Shown here in pieces: positions 21,273 to 32,200 of a stretch of DNA of 32,802 bases; the stretch's first letter is position 1; every line of letters starts with the position of its first letter. The notes beneath the pieces were generated by a model. The model saw only the letters and a list, made by a program, of their open reading frames with translations, was not told the origin of the DNA and searched no databases. The stretch is from an uncultured Geobacter sp. (GTDB lineage: Bacteria; Desulfobacterota; Desulfuromonadia; Geobacterales; CAIOGM01): positions 1-32,802 of the forward strand of contig CAIOGM010000165.1 of assembly GCA_903857795.1 (NCBI GenBank). The letters are read 5' to 3'. The position numbers and the translations under genes were made by a program.

Positions 21273-21736
21273 CCCGCCGGCGCCTCCAGACGCCCCGTCT
21301 CCCGGAGGAGGGTGAACAGCTCCTGCTCCTTCTCCTCCATCCGCAACGCCTCCTCGGGACCACTCCGCTCATGGTCATACCCCACCAGGTGCAGGATGCC
21401 GTGGAGCAGGAGAAACGAGAGCCGCTCGAAGAAGGGGAGCTCCCCCTCCTCGGCCTCCCGGGCCGCAGTGGAGGCAGAGATCACCACATCGCCCAGCACA
21501 TCCGGATTGAGGCCGGAGAACTCCCCCTCATTCAGCGCAAAGGAGATGACGTTGGTGGGGCGGTCCTTTCCCAGGTACTCACGGTTGATTCTCCGGATCC
21601 GCCGGTCCCCCACGATGGTGATCGCCAGCTCACTGGCGGGACAGCCCAAGGCGTTTAAGATCGTCTCCGCTACCCCCCTGAGACGCCTCGCCCTGATGGG
21701 CAGAGCCCTCTGCCGGTTCTCGATGGATATTCTCAA
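21269..21736 (-). CDS. ybeY: Endoribonuclease YbeY, rRNA maturation factor
   Basis: The protein has 155 residues. The zinc-binding motif is HGILHLVGYDHERS near residue 115. YbeY is needed for 16S rRNA 3'-end maturation and ribosome quality control. INREYLGKDRPTNVISFALNEGE is also diagnostic. The start is a TTG at 21736 with GGAGG seven bases upstream. That start lies inside the pgpH gene, giving a 107-base overlap in another frame. The phoH gene, often next to ybeY, is not seen here. Confidence 0.93.
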   Translation of the reverse strand: MRISIENRQRALPIRARRLRGVAETILNALGCPASELAITIVGDRRIRRINREYLGKDRPTNVISFALNEGEFSGLNPDVLGDVVISASTAAREAEEGELPFFERLSFLLLHGILHLVGYDHERSGPEEALRMEEKEQELFTLLRETGRLEAPAG

Positions 21737-24014
21737 GGTTTATCCTCCCCCCCTTCTCCCTGGCGCCGGAGTCAGGGTAGTCGATTCTCTGGTGATAGAT
21801 CCCCGCCAGGATCCGGTTGAAACTCTTGGCTATCTCGTGCAGATTCTTCAGAGTCAGCTCGCACTCGTCCAGTTGCCCCTCGGTGAAGATGTTGTTGATG
21901 ATCTTCTGCACCAGCCCCTGGATCCGGGCCGGAGTCGGATCGGTCAGACTCCGGGAGGCGGCCTCCACGCAGTCGGCCAGCATGACCAGCCCCGCCTCAC
22001 GGGTCTGGGGTTTCGGACCCGGATACCGGTACTCCCGCTCATCCACCGTTCCATCCGGCCCGGCCATACTCTTGGCCTTCTGGTAGAAGAAGGTGATGAG
22101 CGACGTACCGTGCGCCTGACGAATGATATCGATGAGCGTCTGCCCCAGCCGGTTCTGTCGGGCCAGCTCCACCCCCTCCTTCACATGGGCGATCAGGATC
22201 AGGGCGCTCATGCTGGGGGCAAGCCGGTCATGGCGGTTGTCACCGCTGGTCACATTCTCTATGAAATAGAGCGGCTTGCCGAGCTTGCCGATGTCGTGGT
22301 AGTAGGAGGCCACCCGGGCCAGGAGCGGGTTGGCGTTGATCGCCTCGGCGGCCCCTTCCGCCAGATTCCCCACGAGGACGCTATGATGGTAGGTCCCCGG
22401 GGCCTTGATCATCAGCTCCCTGAGGACCTGTGAGTTGAGGCTGGAGAGCTCCAGGAGCTTGATGTCCGTGGTGTACTGGAACAGGTTCTCCAGGAGGGGG
22501 ATCGTGGCGTTGACGAAGGCGGCGGTGATGATGCCGCCGGCCCCGGCAAAGACGACACAGAAGAGGGTCTGCATGGTCAGGAAGCTGTCGGAGAGAATCT
22601 GAAACGACGCAGCCAGGGCGATGCCGACGACGCTGACCTTGACTCCCGCCAGATAGATGGTTCCCCGGTCCTTGCAGTGCCGGACTCCATGGGCGCCGAC
22701 GATGCCGGACATGAGGGAGTAGATGACGATGATCAGGCTGTTCTCGAACATGATCCCGGCCAGGAGTGCACAGACCGAGGTATAGACCAGCGCCACTTCG
22801 GAGTTGATGAGAATCCTGACGAGCATGGCCCCCAGAGCGAAGGGGAAAAGATAGTAGTAGTCGGTAAGATGGATGTACGGAAACATCCCCCCCATGGCCG
22901 AGGTGACTATCAGCGACAGACGAAGCCCCAGGAAGAGCCCCAGGGTGATATAGGTGAGAAGCAGGAGATCCTTGCTGGAGGGATCGAACTTCCTGATGTT
23001 CTTGCAGGCGAAGCGGTAGGGGAAGATCAGCATGATCAGTGTCAGGCCGAAGATACCGAGCACCATGACAAACCGGCCGATACCGCCGTGGCTCTGGTAG
23101 AGAAGCGTCAGCTTCCGGGCCTGATCATCACTGATCCGCTCCCCTTCACGAACGATGATCTCCCCCCGCTTGACCTGGAACATGACCGGCGCAACACCGT
23201 CCCGGGCCTCGCTCCGCTTCTTCTCCGTCAGCTCCCGGTTCAGCAGCAGGTTTGGCTTCAGCATCCGCGCCAGGAATCCCTTGAACAGTTCAAGGTCGCT
23301 CCGCTCGCCGCCGGTTGCCAGTCGCCCCTCTACCGCCAGGAGCCGAGCCTCGTCCAGCCCCACAAACTGCTGGGACCCCTGGAATGGCGCCTCGGCGCCG
23401 GTGGCCCCGTCGGTGACGATCAACCCGTGCAGGAGATCATTGGCGAACTGTTCCTTGTTATCGACGATGGCCCGATCGTAAAGCTGGTCGGTGAGGAGGG
23501 TGACCTCACCGGTGAGCTGCTCGTTGTGGAGACGAGCCAGCGACTCCAGATCACCCGCATCCGCCGGAAAGCCTGCGAGCTCGGAAACCTGCTTCCGGAG
23601 CGAGCGCTTCGTCTCCATGGAAGGGGAGAGCCGCGCCTCCCGCACCAGCTCCAATATCCGCCCCAGTCGCTGGCGCAGCTCTAGAGCGGCGGCCGGATCG
23701 CGGGTATAGACCAGCGGCGCGGCAGCCACGGCCTCTTTGCGCTTCTGGTCCGTGAGATGCGGGTCCTCCAGGAGATAGTCCCGATTGGCCCGGACGCTGG
23801 CGCCGGCGATCTCGCCGGACTTGTAACTCGTCGAGATGAGCTGTTGATGAGGGGTGATCAGTAAACTGAGGATGAGGGCGGTGATAATGAGGAAAAAGAG
23901 GCGGCTCCCTTTACTGGCTTCTGCACCGGCAAAACGGCCACCTAAGAGATCGAGGAGCATCCGGCCAAACCGGAGTGATGATGTCGAGAAAAACTTGCCG
24001 TTATCGGAGGGCAT
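21630..24014 (-). CDS. pgpH: 7TM-HD membrane phosphodiesterase, PgpH-like
   Basis: The protein has 794 residues. One N-terminal helix (about 38-56) precedes an extracytoplasmic domain (about 60-310), then seven membrane helices (about 313-505), then a cytoplasmic HD domain with H544 and HD at 573-574 (ASYYHDIGKLGKP). Such 7TM-HD proteins (PgpH, YqfF) hydrolyse cyclic di-AMP in Firmicutes; in this lineage the nucleotide is not established. The family usually ends near FNRILAGIYHQRIDYP (residue 746). The last 48 residues are extra and largely overlap ybeY. It is the first gene of the long row to corC, lnt and prfB, behind a good promoter. Confidence 0.92.
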   Translation of the reverse strand: MPSDNGKFFSTSSLRFGRMLLDLLGGRFAGAEASKGSRLFFLIITALILSLLITPHQQLISTSYKSGEIAGASVRANRDYLLEDPHLTDQKRKEAVAAAPLVYTRDPAAALELRQRLGRILELVREARLSPSMETKRSLRKQVSELAGFPADAGDLESLARLHNEQLTGEVTLLTDQLYDRAIVDNKEQFANDLLHGLIVTDGATGAEAPFQGSQQFVGLDEARLLAVEGRLATGGERSDLELFKGFLARMLKPNLLLNRELTEKKRSEARDGVAPVMFQVKRGEIIVREGERISDDQARKLTLLYQSHGGIGRFVMVLGIFGLTLIMLIFPYRFACKNIRKFDPSSKDLLLLTYITLGLFLGLRLSLIVTSAMGGMFPYIHLTDYYYLFPFALGAMLVRILINSEVALVYTSVCALLAGIMFENSLIIVIYSLMSGIVGAHGVRHCKDRGTIYLAGVKVSVVGIALAASFQILSDSFLTMQTLFCVVFAGAGGIITAAFVNATIPLLENLFQYTTDIKLLELSSLNSQVLRELMIKAPGTYHHSVLVGNLAEGAAEAINANPLLARVASYYHDIGKLGKPLYFIENVTSGDNRHDRLAPSMSALILIAHVKEGVELARQNRLGQTLIDIIRQAHGTSLITFFYQKAKSMAGPDGTVDEREYRYPGPKPQTREAGLVMLADCVEAASRSLTDPTPARIQGLVQKIINNIFTEGQLDECELTLKNLHEIAKSFNRILAGIYHQRIDYPDSGAREKGGRINLENIHREPAEGSAHQGEASQGGSGDDLKRLGLSRQ

Positions 24015-24807: not shown

Positions 24808-26805
24808 TCATCCCGACGAGCAGAAAGAGTCCCCACGGCAGGGGAGAGTGACGGTAAAGAGCGCACCGGCGCCGGGAGCAGCAGCCGCAGTGATGCTCCC
24901 TCCGTGCTCCCTGACAATACCGTAGGAGACAGCCAGGCCAAGACCGGTCCCCCCCCGCTTGGTGGTAAAAAAAGGATTGAAGATCTTGGAGAGCTGTTCC
25001 GGGGGAATGCCGGGGCCGGTATCGGCCACGGTGACACTGCAGGTCGCCCCCTCCGGATCGAACCGGGTCGACATGGTGAGAACCCCTTCCTCGGACATGG
25101 CTTGAACGGCGTTAAGCGCCAGGTTGGTAAAGAGCTGGCGAAGCTGGTCGCCATCGCCAACGACCTCCGGCAGGTCCGGGTCAAATCCCTTCCGGAGCGT
25201 GATCCGTACCAGCGAGATCTGGTGACTGACCCCTGCAAGCACATCGTCCAGGAGGTGATTGAGATCCACCCGCTCCACCCGCCGCTCTTCCCTCCTGGCA
25301 AAGCAGAGGAGACCGGAGACAATCCGTTCCACCCGTCCCACCTGGCGGGTGATGATCGCCACCTCTTCGCGGCTGGGAGAGTCCTGGGGAAGTTCCATTT
25401 CAAGCAACTCCGCATTCCCCCGGATGATGGCCAGGGGATTATTGATCTCGTGGGCCACCCCGGCGGCCAACTCTCCCACGGCGGCCAGCTTCTCCGCCCG
25501 ATGGAGCTCTTCCCTGGCAATCAGGAGCTGCCCACTCCGCTCCTCAAGCTGGGCGCTCCGTTCCCTGACCCTCTCCTCCAGTCCCCGATTGAGTCCCCGG
25601 ATCTCCTCCTCTTTTTCCCCCAAAGCCACGGTCATGGCGTTGAACTCCGTGGCCAGATCCCCAATCTCGTCCTGAGTCGTCGCCTGAATCCTGACCCCCC
25701 GTTCGCCGGCAGCCACCCTCCGGGCCAGCCGCTCCAGTTCGCGGATCGGAGCGGCCATCCGGCTGCTCAGGGAACGGGAAACCAGCAGCCCCACCAACGC
25801 CCCCACAAAGAGCACCCCGCTGTAGAGAAGCCCCATCCGGAGTTTGACTTCGGTGTAGGGGCGTTCCGGCATCCCCACGTAGAGGGCGCCGATGGGGACC
25901 CCCGCCGGGGAGAGGAGCGGCTCGTAGGCCGAAAAATACCAGTCATTCACCACGAAGGCCCGATCGAACCATTTCTCACCGCGGAGGAGGACCCGGTCAT
26001 AAACCTCCTCCGACATCCGGGTGCCGATGGCCCGCGCACCGTCGGAGAGCAACACGTTGGTGGCTATCCTGAGATCGCCGAGAAAGAGGGTCGAAGTCCC
26101 TCTCCAGTTGGCGCCGAAAACGATCCCTCTAATCCGGTCCACCAGGGAGTTGTTGTTGTTGAGGAGTACCCCGCCGTAGAGCGCCCCCACCACGTTCCCC
26201 GCCTCGTCCCGCACCGGCGAGGCTGCGACCATGAACATACCGGTGCGCTCCACCTCCTCCCGGCGGGGTCGGGCATGGGGGGTCGGCACGAGAGGTGTGA
26301 CAGCCCGACGGACCAGTCCCTCCCCCTCGGCGGTAAGCCGCCGGAGAGGAAGGATGTCGGCGCCGACCAGGGACTCGCCGGCAAGCGCCCGGACCACAAA
26401 CGGATTATCCATCTGGCTGTCGGCGAAAACCGCAGGATTCCCCCCCCGGAAGATGGCGGCGCCGGAGGCGTCGACCGCGGTGAAGATATCCAGCCGCTCG
26501 TTCTTCAGGAGTGGCAAAAGGATGGCCGCCAGAGCCTCACGATCGCCTTGCGCCACGGCCCGGAGAGTGGACGGGGCCACCGCGGTGAACCGGACCACCT
26601 CCCTGATGGTTTCCAGTTCATGGAAGTAGCTCGCGCGGGCCGCGTTCAGGTCGTTGCGGACCTTGTCCTGGGCTTCGGCGACGATCCGGGTGTTGAGGAT
26701 GAAGACCCCCACCAGCCAGCAGGAGGTGATGGCGACAATCAACGGGATGAGGGTGGCCAGGGTGAGCTTGACCTTGATGGAGAAACGTCGGGGCATGAGT
26801 ATCAT
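24808..26805 (-). CDS. Membrane sensor histidine kinase (cache, HAMP, HisKA, HATPase)
   Basis: The protein has 665 residues. Two membrane helices (13-37 and 324-344) enclose a large extracytoplasmic sensor of the cache type (about 40-320, with YFHELETIREVVRF and a repeat of the GALYGG/GALYVG strand). A HAMP linker (341-395) and coiled coil (396-440) lead to HisKA with the phospho-histidine H452 (GVAHEINNPLAII). The ATPase boxes are N (LTNLALNAVQAM), G1 (DTGPGIP), F (FNPFFTTK) and G2 (GTGLGLAVS). It follows the NtrC-type regulator by 50 bases and is its probable kinase. The ligand is unknown. Confidence 0.92.
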   Translation of the reverse strand: MILMPRRFSIKVKLTLATLIPLIVAITSCWLVGVFILNTRIVAEAQDKVRNDLNAARASYFHELETIREVVRFTAVAPSTLRAVAQGDREALAAILLPLLKNERLDIFTAVDASGAAIFRGGNPAVFADSQMDNPFVVRALAGESLVGADILPLRRLTAEGEGLVRRAVTPLVPTPHARPRREEVERTGMFMVAASPVRDEAGNVVGALYGGVLLNNNNSLVDRIRGIVFGANWRGTSTLFLGDLRIATNVLLSDGARAIGTRMSEEVYDRVLLRGEKWFDRAFVVNDWYFSAYEPLLSPAGVPIGALYVGMPERPYTEVKLRMGLLYSGVLFVGALVGLLVSRSLSSRMAAPIRELERLARRVAAGERGVRIQATTQDEIGDLATEFNAMTVALGEKEEEIRGLNRGLEERVRERSAQLEERSGQLLIAREELHRAEKLAAVGELAAGVAHEINNPLAIIRGNAELLEMELPQDSPSREEVAIITRQVGRVERIVSGLLCFARREERRVERVDLNHLLDDVLAGVSHQISLVRITLRKGFDPDLPEVVGDGDQLRQLFTNLALNAVQAMSEEGVLTMSTRFDPEGATCSVTVADTGPGIPPEQLSKIFNPFFTTKRGGTGLGLAVSYGIVREHGGSITAAAAPGAGALFTVTLPCRGDSFCSSG

Positions 26806-26855: not shown

Positions 26856-28232
26856 CTACTCCTGATTACACGGCAGACGGATACCGTACTCGGCGATCTT
26901 TCTATCCAGGGTCTTGCGGGAGATGCCGAGGATCTCGGAACTCCGGGACTTGTGAAAACCGGTCCGGTCCAGAATCCGTCTGATATGGGCCAGCTCCACC
27001 GACTCAAGAGAAGCGAGGAGATCGTCCCCCCCGCTGTCCGGAGAGCCGAGAGTGCTGAGTTTGAGCGGCAGGGCGCCGCTTTCGATCTCCCCCCCCCGGG
27101 TGAGGATCACCGCCCGTTCCATGACATTTTCCAGCTCGCGGACATTGCCGGGCCAGGGGTAGGACTCCAGGATGGTCAGGGCCATCGGATGTATCCCGAC
27201 GATCTCCCTGTTCATCCGCCGGGCGGATCTCTCCAGAAAATGCCGGGCCAACGGCTCCACATCTTCGGGACGCTCCCTGAGCGGCGGCAGCTGCAGGGTG
27301 ATGACGTTGAGCCGATAATAAAGGTCCTCCCTGAACCGGCCGTTGCGGATCTCCTGCTCCAGCTCCTTGTTGGTGGCGGCAAGAAACCGGACATCAACCA
27401 CCTTGGGTCTGGTGGCCCCCACCGGCAGAAACTCCCGTTCCTGCACGACCCGCAGCAGCTTGGCCTGGATTGCCGGGCTCATGTCACCGATCTCGTCAAG
27501 GAAGAGGGTGCCGCCGTGGGCCTCCTCCAAGAGCCCCTTGCGGCTCTCCACCGCGCCGGTAAAGGCCCCCCGCAGATGACCGAAGAGCTGGCTTTCCAGG
27601 AGGGTATCGGTCAGGGCCGCGCAGTTGATGGAGAGGAGACGCTTGCCGTTACGGGGGCTGTGCTGGTGGAGGGCAGCGGCGATCAGCTCCTTGCCGGTCC
27701 CCGACTCGCCGGTGATCAGGATATTGGCGTCGCTTCCCGCCACCTGGAGAGTCAGATCATAGAGCTCCTTGAACCGGCTGCTCCGGAAGATGATGGGCGA
27801 TGTGGTGCGCCCCTTGATCAACTCCTCCCGGAGCGCCCGGTTCTCCCTGATGAGAACTTCGCGCTCCAGCGCCTTTTCCAGCAGAGCGAGGATCTTCTCC
27901 TTGGGAAACGGCTTGGTCACATAATCGTAGGCCCCCAGCCGGATGGCCCCGACGGCATCGTCGATGGTCCCGAAGGCGGTCATGATGATCACCGGCAGAG
28001 ACGGACGGAGCCGTTTCGCCTCCCTGAGCACCGTTACCCCGTCCATGTCCGGCATCCGGACATCCTGGAGCAGCAGATCGGCATCCCCCTCATCGCCCGT
28101 CTCCAGACGCCGGAGGAGTTGAGCGCCACGGGAGAAACTCTCCACGCCGTACCCCTGGCTGATGAGGATCTTGCCGAGATAGCGGAGGATCTCTTCTTCG
28201 TCGTCACAGATGAGGATGCGTTTGGGGGGCAT
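26856..28232 (-). CDS. Sigma-54-dependent response regulator (NtrC family)
   Basis: The protein has 458 residues. The receiver domain (1-120) has D10, D11, the phosphorylated D57 (LLQDVRMPD) and K107. The AAA+ domain (about 144-380) has Walker A GESGTGKE (175-182), the sigma-54 contact loop GAFTGA (222-227) and Walker B GTLFLDEI (241-248). A Fis-type helix-turn-helix closes it (SRSSEILGISRKTLDRKI). It activates sigma-54 promoters when phosphorylated. A strong sigma-54 promoter match lies 156 bases away, ahead of the divergent fusion gene, which is the natural target. The ribosome binding site is weak (GAAAG). Confidence 0.94.
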   Translation of the reverse strand: MPPKRILICDDEEEILRYLGKILISQGYGVESFSRGAQLLRRLETGDEGDADLLLQDVRMPDMDGVTVLREAKRLRPSLPVIIMTAFGTIDDAVGAIRLGAYDYVTKPFPKEKILALLEKALEREVLIRENRALREELIKGRTTSPIIFRSSRFKELYDLTLQVAGSDANILITGESGTGKELIAAALHQHSPRNGKRLLSINCAALTDTLLESQLFGHLRGAFTGAVESRKGLLEEAHGGTLFLDEIGDMSPAIQAKLLRVVQEREFLPVGATRPKVVDVRFLAATNKELEQEIRNGRFREDLYYRLNVITLQLPPLRERPEDVEPLARHFLERSARRMNREIVGIHPMALTILESYPWPGNVRELENVMERAVILTRGGEIESGALPLKLSTLGSPDSGGDDLLASLESVELAHIRRILDRTGFHKSRSSEILGISRKTLDRKIAEYGIRLPCNQE

Positions 28233-28364: not shown

Positions 28365-28387
28365 GTCACCCATGGTCGGCAAGGTAT

Positions 28388-28403
28388 TGGCCCGGTACTT
28401 GCT
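28388..28403 (+). promoter_or_regulatory. Sigma-54 promoter
   Basis: TGGCCCG-GTAC-TTGCT matches the consensus TGGCACG-N4-TTGCW with one change. The invariant GG and GC are separated by exactly ten bases. Transcription should start near 28415, before the chosen start codon at 28472 and ahead of the possible GTG at 28424. It sets the fusion gene under control of a sigma-54 activator, most likely the divergent one. Confidence 0.75.
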
Positions 28404-28471
28404 GAAGGAACCTGGGAGCGGGAGTGCCCCCTGCGACTCTCACATCACGCCTGCCGGGAATTAATCCAACC

Positions 28472-31048
28472 ATGTCAATCTGTTTATCGGAGCTGACCAC
28501 GATCCGGCTCTTTGCCGGGCTGACCGATTCGGTACTGGAACGGATCGCGTTACGCCTGGAAGAGTGTGTCTTTTTGTCCGGGGCGGTCATTTTAACCCGT
28601 CATGCACCCGCAGATGCGCTCTATTTCATCCTCTCCGGGAAGGTCCGGGTGGAGCTGTGCGACGCTGCCGGCCGAATTTTCAACCTGGCCGAACTGGGAA
28701 GCGGCGAGGTCGTCGGCGAACGGGCGATCCTTACCGACGAACTCCGCAGCGCCGACGTGCGCGCATTGAGCGAGACGCGAGCCGCCCGACTCTCCCGTCA
28801 CGACTTCGAAGAGCTCCTTGCCGAAACACCCCGCCTCTATGCCAATCTCTGCCAAGATCTGGCCCGGCAGCTGGGGAGCTGGGCAGCGCGTCACCAGCGG
28901 GAAGAGCACGAACACCGCGACCTCCTCACCAACGTCATCGGTTGGCAGCTCCTGCCGGAATTCGGGGCTTTCCCCGGCAGCTCCCCCTGGGTAAAGGAGC
29001 TGAACCTGCGGCTGGAGCTCCTCGGCGGCTCCCCCGACCATATCCTCATCTCCGGAGAGCCGGGGACCTGGAAAGACCTGGCGGCCCGTCTGGTCCATTA
29101 TCATGGCGACCCCGGCCGACCGGTCCTCTTCCTGGACTGTGCCACCCCCCCTCCTCTCCTCCATCAGGGGGAGACGGCACGAAACGACTCAGGCAACCGA
29201 CTCCTATTGGAGATGAGTCAGGAGGCGGCGCTCTTCGGCCGCGCCCCGGAGAGTCAGCTCTCCTCCGGCCGGGCCCGGCGGGGAATGCTGGAGCTGGCAG
29301 CCGGCGGCGATCTGATCCTGCGCAACGTGGATTGCCTCACCCCGGCGGCTCAGGCGAGCCTCTGCGCCTATCTGGAGAGCGGACAGTTCCAGCGGCGGGG
29401 GGAACACGAACTGCGCAGCAGCCGGGTCCGGGTCATCGCCACCAGCGGAGAACCGCTGGAGCCGGCGATCAGGCGGGGGGAGTTCAGCGCCGCACTGCAC
29501 GACCGGCTGGCCATGGAGAGCGTCACCATGGTCCCCTTGCGGGAGCGGAAGAAGGATATCCCGGTCATGGCCAGGAGCCTGCTCAAGAGCCTCAACGCCA
29601 AGCATCACAAGCAGGTGCGACGCATCTCTCAGGACGCCCTCAACCGGCTGGTGGATCACGATTGGCCGCTTAACGGCAGCGAGCTCTATCAGGTGATCAG
29701 CCGTGCCGTGGTGGTCTGCAGCGACGAGGAGATTCTCCCCGAACAGATCTTTCTCCAGGGAGCCCCCTTTGGCGACGGCCGCTTCAACCTGCTGACCATC
29801 CCTGCCGTGGAACGGCTGGCACGCCGCCCCGATTTCCCCCGTATCTTCCGGTGGAGCACGGTCCCCCTCTTTTTAGCAGTGACGGCTGCGACCCTTCTCG
29901 GTCCATCAGGGGGCAACGCCGCCAACCTGGCGGTCTGGACCCTCTGGTGGCCGGCCCTCCTGATAACGGTCTTTTTCTCTGCCCGGGGATGGTGCAGCTA
30001 CTGTCCTCTGGAGGCCATAGGCGGTTTTCTGGGAGCCACGGGACGGGTGGTGCGAGAGCCGAAAAGCTGGCTGCGCCGCTGGGGTCCGTCAATCACTCTC
30101 TCCGGAGTGGTGGCGATCCTGCTCCTGGAACAGGCCACCGGCATGTTCTCTCACCCCTTTGCCACAGGGCTGCTCCTGGTGGGACTGCTGCTGGCTACCG
30201 TGGCGGGGGATCTGGTTTTGGGGCGGCGGGGGTGGTGCAAATATCTCTGTCCACTGGGGCGGATCGTCAGCCTGGGGTCGCGGATCTCCCTCCTGGAGAT
30301 GCGCAGCAATCACACGGTCTGCGTCAGCCGCTGCCGGGTGGATGACTGTGTCAAGGAGAAGGGGTGCCCCATGGGGCTGCACCCCACCGGCATCGACAAC
30401 TCGGACCACTGCGTCCTCTGCTTCAACTGCGTTCGCAACTGTCCCCATCACGCAATGCAGCTTGATCTGCGCAATCCCGCCTGGGGACTCTTCAACCGGT
30501 CCCGGCGCGGCATGGCGGAAGCGCTGTTCAGCGTCACCCTGGTGGGAGCGGTCATCGCCGCCAAGGGGACACCGTTGGTTACCGGGCGCCGGCCGGAACT
30601 CTTTCCCCAGTCGCTCTGGAGCGCCCCTGAATTTTTCCTGGCGCTCCTCATCACCGCCGCTTATGCAGGGCTGACCTTGCTGGCGTCTGCCCCGGGGCGG
30701 AGTCGCCGCTGGCGGCGGGACTTCACCATCTGCGGCGTGGCCTACCTGCCCCTTGCCCTTGTGGGCTTCTTCGTCGTCTACTTCCGTGCGCTGGTGGAGG
30801 GGGGATCCTCCCTCGTCCCGCTGATCCTGACCGGGCTGGGAGTCGCCGGATGGCTGGATCTGGAGCGGCTCACCCCTGATCTGGGAACCCTGCGGCTCCT
30901 GATCGCTCCGCTCCTGGTGGGGGGAGCATCCCTCTCGTGGTGGGCCCTGGGGCGCCTCCGGAAGCAGCACCATCTGAACCGGGCAAGCATCATCTGCCAT
31001 CGTCTGTTGATTCTTCTTGCCCTGGTCGCCTACCTCTGGCTGCTCTGA
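28472..31048 (+). CDS. Fusion: cNMP-binding domain, degenerate sigma-54-activator AAA+ domain, NapH/NosR-like 4Fe-4S membrane domain
   Basis: The protein has 858 residues. Residues 10-115 are a cyclic-nucleotide-binding domain (LFAGLTDSVLERIA, DALYFILSGKVRV, ELGSGEVVGERAIL). Residues 163-430 follow the NtrC AAA+ fold but are degenerate: Walker A GEPGTWKD (195-202), Walker B replaced by GDLILRNV, the GAFTGA loop absent (ESQLSSGR), and the sensor II arginine lost. There is no helix-turn-helix. From residue 462 come about eight membrane helices with CSYCP (C508, C511) and CKYLCP (C589, C593), then two 4Fe-4S motifs (C617, C621, C626, C632; C647, C650, C653, C657). This resembles NapH/NosR/CcoG quinol-side electron carriers. 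The start at 28472 is chosen by fold and promoter; a GTG at 28424 is possible. Confidence 0.85.
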   Translation: MSICLSELTTIRLFAGLTDSVLERIALRLEECVFLSGAVILTRHAPADALYFILSGKVRVELCDAAGRIFNLAELGSGEVVGERAILTDELRSADVRALSETRAARLSRHDFEELLAETPRLYANLCQDLARQLGSWAARHQREEHEHRDLLTNVIGWQLLPEFGAFPGSSPWVKELNLRLELLGGSPDHILISGEPGTWKDLAARLVHYHGDPGRPVLFLDCATPPPLLHQGETARNDSGNRLLLEMSQEAALFGRAPESQLSSGRARRGMLELAAGGDLILRNVDCLTPAAQASLCAYLESGQFQRRGEHELRSSRVRVIATSGEPLEPAIRRGEFSAALHDRLAMESVTMVPLRERKKDIPVMARSLLKSLNAKHHKQVRRISQDALNRLVDHDWPLNGSELYQVISRAVVVCSDEEILPEQIFLQGAPFGDGRFNLLTIPAVERLARRPDFPRIFRWSTVPLFLAVTAATLLGPSGGNAANLAVWTLWWPALLITVFFSARGWCSYCPLEAIGGFLGATGRVVREPKSWLRRWGPSITLSGVVAILLLEQATGMFSHPFATGLLLVGLLLATVAGDLVLGRRGWCKYLCPLGRIVSLGSRISLLEMRSNHTVCVSRCRVDDCVKEKGCPMGLHPTGIDNSDHCVLCFNCVRNCPHHAMQLDLRNPAWGLFNRSRRGMAEALFSVTLVGAVIAAKGTPLVTGRRPELFPQSLWSAPEFFLALLITAAYAGLTLLASAPGRSRRWRRDFTICGVAYLPLALVGFFVVYFRALVEGGSSLVPLILTGLGVAGWLDLERLTPDLGTLRLLIAPLLVGGASLSWWALGRLRKQHHLNRASIICHRLLILLALVAYLWLL

Positions 31049-31347: not shown

Positions 31348-31851
31348 TCAACCTTCCAGAGAGCGGCGTAAATCCTTCGTCAAGAGAAAAAGATGCAATG
31401 GATCAGTCGGCGAAGGCTCAAAGCCGAAATGTTCATAAAACATCCTTGCCGGTTCATCCTTGGCATGTACGACAAAAGCGCGAATACCGCCAATATCTGC
31501 GGCTTGGAGAGTACGAAGCGTCGCATCACGCAATAGATAGACACCGATGCGACGTCCCTGCCATGCAGTCCCGACAGCAAGCCGCGCCAGCAACATGACC
31601 GGAACAGGGTGCCGCGCTAATCCCTTGGCCATCCGTTCCGGCGCGTCGATAAATGCAATTTCCCCTACAACCAGGCTATAGAAACCGATAACGTCTACGC
31701 CATGTAGCGCTATATATGTTTGTGCGGCGTTGGCTTGTTGGTTCCCAAGAGCGAAGCGCTTGAGAAAACGATCAAGCTCCTCCCGCCCACAGGTAAACAG
31801 GTCAATGGGATGATCACGGCGCAGCTTCTCGATCCTGAAGCCGCTCGTCAT
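31348..31851 (-). CDS. GNAT acetyltransferase toxin, TacT-like
   Basis: The protein has 167 residues. It matches toxins that acetylate aminoacyl-tRNA: FTCGREELDRFLKRFA at the start, LLARLAVGTAWQGRRIGVYLLRDA (acetyl-CoA-binding, P-loop-like), and MFYEHFGFEPSPTDPLHLFL with the catalytic tyrosine. It overlaps the upstream DUF1778 antitoxin gene by four bases. Such toxins stop translation until deacylase or antitoxin acts. Confidence 0.92.
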   Translation of the reverse strand: MTSGFRIEKLRRDHPIDLFTCGREELDRFLKRFALGNQQANAAQTYIALHGVDVIGFYSLVVGEIAFIDAPERMAKGLARHPVPVMLLARLAVGTAWQGRRIGVYLLRDATLRTLQAADIGGIRAFVVHAKDEPARMFYEHFGFEPSPTDPLHLFLLTKDLRRSLEG

Positions 31852-32153
31852 CTGCTCTTGGGTGTATCGAAAGGAGTGGGTTCATGGAACAGCCGTTGAA
31901 GCTGGGGCACGACACGAGGCGGAGCATCCAGCGCCGTCATGAACTCCTCCCACTTCTCGGCGTCCAGTTGGAAGCAACGCCGCTCCGTAAGGGTTTCCGC
32001 CGCACGTTCCAAAGCACTCGTCAGCACAAACTGGCTAACGGAACAGCGAGCCTCATGGGCGGCGGCGTTCAAAGTCTGCTTTGCTTCCGGCGATAGGCGC
32101 AAATCAAGCTTGCTTGTACGGACAGATCGAGCCGTCATTAATCGAGATGTCAT
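31848..32153 (-). CDS. DUF1778 antitoxin, TacA-like
   Basis: The protein has 101 residues. A ribbon-helix-helix DNA-binding half (LDLRLSPEAKQTLNAAAHEARCSVSQFVLTSALERA) is followed by the toxin-binding tail (FQLDAEKWEEFMTALDAPP). I place the start at 32153 because GGAGG precedes that ATG by five bases; the frame is open to 32177. It represses its own operon in known cases. Inverted repeats upstream (32173-32200) are candidate operators. Confidence 0.92.
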   Translation of the reverse strand: MTSRLMTARSVRTSKLDLRLSPEAKQTLNAAAHEARCSVSQFVLTSALERAAETLTERRCFQLDAEKWEEFMTALDAPPRVVPQLQRLFHEPTPFDTPKSR

Positions 32154-32172
32154 GACTTCCTCCAGTACGAAC

Positions 32173-32200
32173 GACAATAACTTATTTGACCGACATTGTC
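32173..32200 (-). promoter_or_regulatory. Candidate operator of the TacA/TacT operon
   Basis: GACAAT (32173-32178) and ATTGTC (32195-32200) form an inverted repeat with a 16-base gap, just upstream of the antitoxin start at 32153. Ribbon-helix-helix antitoxins bind such repeats. A second related inverted pair (32200-32210 with 32320-32330, one mismatch) lies further out. No test was possible. Confidence 0.35.

Follow-up and report, generated by a model that had tools for sequence, protein, structure and literature searches.

A NapH-like membrane iron-sulfur protein that carries a cyclic-nucleotide-type sensor and a sigma-54 activator domain lacking its catalytic motifs

Why should one gene join a cyclic-nucleotide-type sensor, an AAA+ domain of the sigma-54 activators and a membrane iron-sulfur module? 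The question is raised by a gene of an uncultured Geobacter sp. on contig CAIOGM010000165.1 (assembly GCA_903857795.1), of which we analysed a stretch of 32,802 nucleotides (the window). An earlier inspection of the letters, here called the sequence-only reading, had reported that one open reading frame (ORF) unites the three parts, and this was borne out. Pfam assigns to the 858-aa protein a cyclic-nucleotide-binding (cNMP) domain (cNMP_binding, residues 34-118, E value 2.6e-19), Sigma54_activat (251-349, E 1.3e-18), which covers the second half of the AAA+ core, AAA_lid_14 (357-426) and Fer4_5 (568-596). The frame, whose stop ends at 31048, could also begin with a GTG at 28424, but ATG 28472 appears the likelier start, because the nearest relative, locus L030, has a Met at the same place; all residue numbers count from this ATG. 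The AlphaFold model of the protein has a mean predicted local distance difference test score of 77.9, a low-confidence stretch at 614-648 and, past residue 454, nine helices of at least 20 residues.

The joining of normally separate systems had been taken for an oddity, a view that does not survive comparison: within the lineage, as judged from 49 proteins scanned, it is a fixed architecture. The search for relatives with the same domain order yielded 68 distinct proteins with a head, that is, a sensor followed by AAA+ core and lid, the window's protein included. They comprise frames of at least 600 aa from a profile search of loci and five proteins added by hand; the set excludes headless frames (L111-L113, 690-739 aa), loci truncated by contig ends such as L134 and L135, and some of the matches from the order and phylum searches described below. 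Thirty are of the window type and come from Geobacter relatives, and 38 are more distant and come from the window's phylum, four of them from its own order, and from the phylum of an Armatimonadota genome. A Pfam scan of 49 of the 68 found the lid in 49, Sigma54_activat and Fer4_5 in 48 each and the cNMP domain in 44; by alignment, the remaining five are L049, which has lost the domain, and four frames cut by contig ends. Twelve cysteines and R505, all in the membrane module, as well as N401 and E404 of the lid are invariant across the 49 rows, and the two lid residues are kept in all 68. An assembly or sequencing error that fused two genes, which the sequence-only reading had named as a way in which it could fail, is excluded because the identical frame layout occurs in 68 genes.

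When 58 genomes were searched, 21 gave a hit. Two of these hits, L028 and L029, proved to be normal GAFTGA-bearing activators and were rejected as family members, which leaves 19 genomes with the full-length protein, the window's own among them. Scanning GTDB contigs gave 23 loci, which are spread over Geomonas, Citrifermentans, Oryzomonas and Geobacter and reach as far as a single Desulfuromonadales and a single Armatimonadota genome. The membrane module is matched in 37 of 141 genomes within the order and, in the two phyla sampled, in 74 of 395 genomes of the window's phylum, many as shorter headless proteins, and in 13 of 251 genomes of the phylum of the Armatimonadota locus, that genome included, six of the 13 having their best match in a frame of more than 700 aa. 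Some genomes of the window's phylum carry several long paralogues of the family, three copies each in G156 and G435 and two each in G362 and G380.

We then asked what is left of the activator. The families PF00158 and PF25601 both score above cut-off in the window protein, and the fold of its head matches NtrC1 (3m0e, E 2.3e-16, Foldseek). The 68 proteins were aligned together with the intact NtrC-type regulator encoded next to the gene, and motifs of the core are counted out of 67, as L105 has no AAA+ core. At the positions of Walker A, Walker B, GAFTGA and sensor II the neighbour reads GESGTGKE, LFLDE, GAFTGA and NVRELE, the window protein GEPGTWKD, LILRN, ESQLSS and NGSELY. The loss of Walker B and of the GAFTGA loop, described earlier for this one protein, extends to the entire family: none of the 67 keeps the DE of Walker B (two retain D only, one E only), none keeps GAFTGA (a maximum of four of six letters, in one protein), and none keeps the first arginine finger, whose position is deleted in 10. 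The sensor II arginine, rightly read as lost in the window protein, persists in 3 of 68. For Walker A the earlier claim stands only in part. The motif is degenerate in the window protein and intact in none of the 30 proteins of the window type, which share a Trp before the lysine; the lysine itself, K201 in the window protein, is kept in 62 of 67, and 30 of the 37 others have the intact motif. Relatives with intact Walker and GAFTGA motifs, which could have overturned the sequence-only reading, did not turn up, since these 30 retain Walker A only. Likewise, Pfam lists no helix-turn-helix (HTH) family for the window protein at E values up to 1 or for the 49 family proteins at 0.001, in agreement with the reported absence of this element.

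The control was a set of 26 sigma-54 activators with complete motif columns that are encoded in the window's genome and include the neighbour (28 loci from 31 genome hits, one hit being left out; two loci without match and one partial). They show the GK of Walker A in 26, the DE of Walker B in 22, the sensor II arginine in 26, the first arginine finger in 23 and GAFTGA exactly in 14 and with at least five letters in 24; three other degenerate proteins are among the four without DE. As the control activators display the motifs, the alignment is able to detect them. The lost motifs and the missing HTH thus rule out an ordinary sigma-54 activator, and from its residues the window protein should not work as a normal one. 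Given the distribution of intact Walker A, ATP may be bound but not hydrolysed in the wider family, and it is probably not bound at all in the window's branch. A tree of the AAA+ domains places six intact activators of the window's genome in one group (100/100; the tree is unrooted and its few intact rows are these six, which have exact GAFTGA and were taken from nine candidates of a single genome), a result that fits a single origin of the head.

The window's genome also encodes a separate set of pseudo-activators without a membrane module (L188:1084-2502, L189:567-2054 and L190:1368-2417). In these activator-like proteins Walker B is replaced by LHRI, IQQV and LRQV, respectively, and L189 and L190 lack GAFTGA as well, while having Walker A and, by eye, an HTH-like end.

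The head is not in decay. In six close pairs the ratio of nonsynonymous to synonymous substitution rates (dN/dS) is at most 0.30 for every part of the protein, which rules out a decaying pseudogene; the lid lies at 0.02-0.10 and the AAA+ core at 0.03-0.18. Mean pairwise identity among 18 window-type proteins is 0.859 in the lid and 0.827 in the linker between sensor and core; it falls to 0.771 in the iron-sulfur half, 0.673 in the AAA+ core, 0.625 in the cNMP domain and 0.603 in the last helices. Low dN/dS and a lid and linker that exceed the iron-sulfur module in conservation demonstrate that the head is under purifying selection. Being more conserved than all other parts, lid and linker point to a working surface rather than a relic. 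The model places the linker in a helix of residues 120-159, with low confidence at 143-160.

In the membrane half all 12 motif cysteines are kept in 68 of 68 proteins. The NapH-like cysteine layout noticed before is supported by these residues and by an NCBIfam alignment of residues 572-664 to NapH/MauN; the first four-cysteine motif lies mostly inside the low-confidence stretch of the model. According to the available parts of the respective papers, NapH is defined by two membrane Cys-Pro motifs and two four-cysteine motifs (PMC5928378), and NapH-like modules link quinol to extracytosolic enzymes by carrying electrons (PMC8238504, PMC5928378). The module also exists without a head: it stands alone in L119, is fused to a cytochrome c domain in L111 and lies beside genes that look NapG-like by eye in L112. 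The cysteine layout together with these settings favours electron transfer as the likely output of the protein and regulation as the task of its head. In a tree of the membrane module (unrooted, twelve near-copies or cut rows being omitted) headless proteins occupy two separate positions between headed ones and may therefore have lost the head. In another locus, L114, a 644-aa frame seems by eye to fuse the module to a cupredoxin-like domain.

At the other end of the protein, the cNMP domain scores 69.4 bits against a Pfam cut-off of 27.5. With this score and with the Glu and Arg of the phosphate cassette, E83 and R92, the window protein belongs by sequence to the proteins with a cNMP-binding domain; each of the two residues is kept in 29 of 30 window-type proteins, and the profile of the domain matches the regulatory chains of PKA and PKG. 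Additional inputs occur on some heads, GAF and FHA being found in 2 of the 49 Pfam-scanned proteins each. FHA is gained in one branch, as in the 1068-aa protein of L104 (FHA-cNMP-pseudoAAA-membrane Fe-S; L104:5766-10743), where a Ser/Thr kinase gene with TPR repeats follows 41 bp downstream of the family gene; in the contig-cut L105 a similar kinase-like gene follows at 25 bp.

Taken together, these data are best explained by a NapH-type electron carrier that is controlled through a pseudo-ATPase regulatory head, an explanation that we consider evenly balanced between holding and failing. Electrons from quinol or another donor would pass through two 4Fe-4S sites and two membrane cysteine motifs at the cytoplasmic membrane. 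The fixed regulatory head would consist of a cNMP-fold sensor and, following it, a pseudo-ATPase made of AAA+ domain and lid of a sigma-54 activator, devoid of the residues that hydrolyse ATP and touch sigma-54 and of a DNA-binding domain; it would most likely act as an oligomerising or conformational relay. A ligand at the cNMP fold, or possibly ATP where Walker A is kept, might then affect how electrons are transferred or how a soluble partner docks. More tentatively, and as a possibility that falls short of an even chance, the activator motor may have been captured once, deprived of its ATPase function and sigma-54 contacts and turned into an allosteric gate on the transmembrane iron-sulfur carrier. 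Through this gate a second-messenger-type signal would directly, and without transcription, switch the exchange of electrons between quinone pool and a soluble partner, in a family that spans at least two phyla.

Several observations weigh against a regulated NapH-type carrier. On the input side, R92 is kept in only 9 of the 38 distant relatives, the region being absent from 4 of them, and L049 retains all remaining parts without a sensor. The cyclase families PF00211, PF01295 and PF01928 have no match in the window's genome, makers of other cyclic nucleotides not having been sought; since none of the three is matched, a cAMP or cGMP signal as input is doubtful, and the sensor may respond to something other than ordinary cAMP or cGMP. 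On the output side, the match to TIGR02163 (NapH; E 2.6e-12, 46.8 bits) is far below the curated cut-off of 213.05, and by its sequence we class the module as a relative of the NapH family, not as a member; the curated model of CcoG likewise gives 17.3 bits against a cut-off of 316.7. A fold search with the membrane module, which is poorly modelled at 614-648, returned no Foldseek match at E <0.001 and a VIA Z <8, and the module has no sequence match in the PDB. No NapG-like partner is seen beside the gene, where the contig ends 1.8 kb downstream and the flanking genes scanned encode a regulator, a kinase and an acetyltransferase. Finally, neighbouring genes are mostly not conserved among the family loci. 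The positions of all features are compiled in the table.

Table. Features of the gene and its surroundings in the window
Feature	Residues	Position	Strand	Basis
Whole gene: sensor, pseudo-sigma-54-activator and NapH-like membrane Fe-S protein	858 aa	28472..31048	+	ORF, Pfam, relatives
cNMP-type sensor domain; phosphate-cassette G82, E83, R92 present	1-120	28472..28831	+	PF00027, E 2.6e-19
Linker, mostly one long helix	121-165	28832..28966	+	Mean pairwise identity 0.827, 18 proteins
AAA+ core, sigma-54-activator type, without Walker B, GAFTGA and arginine finger; Trp in Walker A	166-355	28967..29536	+	
AAA+ lid; sensor II Arg lost	356-430	29537..29761	+	Identity 0.859
NapH-like membrane module, about nine helices	441-858	29792..31045	+	TIGR02163 match; helices
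First membrane cysteine motif	C508xxC511P	29993..30007	+	Both Cys 68/68
Second membrane cysteine motif	C589xxxC593P	30236..30253	+	Both Cys 68/68
Two four-cysteine motifs, predicted 4Fe-4S sites	C617-C621-C626-C632P; C647-C650-C653-C657P	30320..30445	+	Eight Cys 68/68
Sigma-54-type -24/-12 promoter box TTGGCCCGGTACTTGCT, 68 bp before ATG 28472		28387..28403	+	Exact consensus match
Divergent NtrC-type response regulator, intact motifs; candidate activator of the box		26856..28232	-	ORF, Pfam, alignment
Histidine kinase with cache sensor domain, adjoining the response regulator		24808..26805	-	Pfam

The head might instead be an assembly or docking factor, either a scaffold for some cytosolic partner or a support for a respiratory complex, for instance a Hyb-type hydrogenase. 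We regard this as rather unlikely. The most conserved part, the lid, is a likely binding face, and hydrogenase genes do occur near family genes: in L049 (L049:64-8199) a hybO-A-B-C-D-like run precedes the family gene by 185 bp, in L040 the family gene lies 94 bp before a hydrogenase small-subunit gene, and in L048 hydrogenase genes are found about 3 kb off in convergent orientation. This association is, however, confined to 3 of 30 window-type loci, some of which were seen with 1.5 kb of flank only. Among the matches listed for seven Geomonas-type genomes, the large-subunit gene closest to the family gene is separated from it by about 70-86 kb of the same contig, and no hydrogenase appears among the few annotated neighbours of distant relatives. 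We take the hydrogenase link as a weak lead.

A different kind of output is proposed by a redox-controlled anti-activator, in which the iron-sulfur module senses and the dead head joins or captures a live NtrC-type ring, for instance that of the divergent regulator, and so poisons it at the membrane, a scenario that we find quite improbable. Such a ring could conceivably take up a dead subunit whose fold is the same, and an NtrC-type gene adjoins the family gene in two lineages: in the window and in L030 the regulator is divergent and accompanied by a kinase, and in L084 and L087 an NtrC-type gene lies directly upstream in the same direction, with a kinase-like gene (by eye) beyond. In addition, the family gene's own sigma-54 box would suit feedback. 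Immediate adjacency is, however, restricted to these two lineages, and as the 4.05-Mb genome contains 31 activator-domain hits, it is near chance by a rough estimate. Box and adjacency are more simply explained by the neighbour activating the gene; moreover, the arginine finger is lost, and the window type also lacks a nucleotide pocket.

The consensus pattern for this box was written after the site had been seen; with up to one mismatch it has 3 matches in the window against 0.57 expected, a number equalled in 3 of 100 shuffles. A box at 68-87 bp before the gene is present in 9 of 29 window-type genes (window, L030, L012, L032, L033, L034, L048, L161 and L166; shuffle p up to 0.03). It is absent at this distance from L031, L035, L040 and 17 Geomonas/Citrifermentans-type genes, and 28 distant genes have no common box position. 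Not counted were boxes of L042 (Geomonas) at 271 bp (p 0.004) and of three of the 28 distant genes at 51, 136 and 171 bp (p 0.03-0.04). The gene of the dead activator is thus probably itself switched on by a live one, for which the divergent neighbour would be the natural candidate in the window and in L030; in the other box carriers no such regulator was seen adjacent. We rejected gene neighbourhood as a guide to a partner, the context being mostly unconserved, the NtrC neighbour near chance and the hydrogenase link weak. A flavodoxin-like gene beside L097 and L100 was not used either, that of L097 being a weak FMN_red match (E 0.0021).

That the protein is a plain electron carrier with a head that merely multimerises and senses nothing is very doubtful, as E83 and R92 persist throughout most of the window type and GAF and FHA inputs were added elsewhere, even if the eroded sensor residues of many distant relatives, the sensorless L049 and the three unmatched cyclase families would fit it.

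Elsewhere in the window, at 31348-32177 on the minus strand and next to the family gene, a GNAT acetyltransferase gene (Pfam) lies beside a 109-aa frame that resembles a DUF1778-type antitoxin; the two may form a toxin-antitoxin pair. Positions 21630-24014 on the same strand encode a protein of the 7TMR-HD type (Pfam 7TM-7TMR_HD, 7TMR-HDED and HD).

The observation made in the sequence-only reading is thus confirmed and its interpretation partly supported. Its subject turns out to be a family instead of a single odd protein, and the architecture suggests that membrane electron flow has come under the control of a reused old transcription switch. Control of electron flow is usually sought in transcription. 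If a NapH-type carrier is indeed governed by its head, a conserved family would have both a sensor of nucleotide type and an inactive activator motor mounted directly on a membrane electron carrier, and Geobacter relatives and other bacteria would possess a post-translational switch on electron flow. The family also offers a natural case of a sigma-54 activator fold that selection has kept after catalysis was lost. For annotation, Sigma54_activat alone would label these membrane redox proteins as transcription factors.

In the literature searched, which was mostly open access, we found no description of this family architecture, and domain databases may list it uncommented; the part of a paper on Desulfovibrio activators that was available shows no such protein (PMC4641369). 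Comparison with known systems places each part of the protein. With NapH/MauN (TIGR02163, PF12801) it shares the membrane helices, the CxxCP and CxxxCP motifs and the two four-cysteine motifs, but it differs by the large cytosolic N-terminal head and by extra C-terminal helices past the aligned region. NosR and RdhC/PceC likewise have an additional domain at the N-terminus of a NapH-like membrane module; theirs binds flavin mononucleotide (FMN), whereas Pfam lists no FMN-binding family for the window protein. NosR is named a regulator of transcription in NCBIfam, and RdhC, according to the available part of PMC5928378, was first proposed to be one. The AAA+ and lid fold is common to the sigma-54 activators NtrC, NtrC1 and ZraR, from which the window protein is set apart by being membrane-bound and by lacking Walker B, GAFTGA, arginine finger, sensor II Arg and HTH. 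With CRP and the regulatory folds of PKA and PKG, finally, it has in common a PF00027 domain with G82-E83 and R92, but in place of an HTH or kinase output this domain is joined to a membrane iron-sulfur module.

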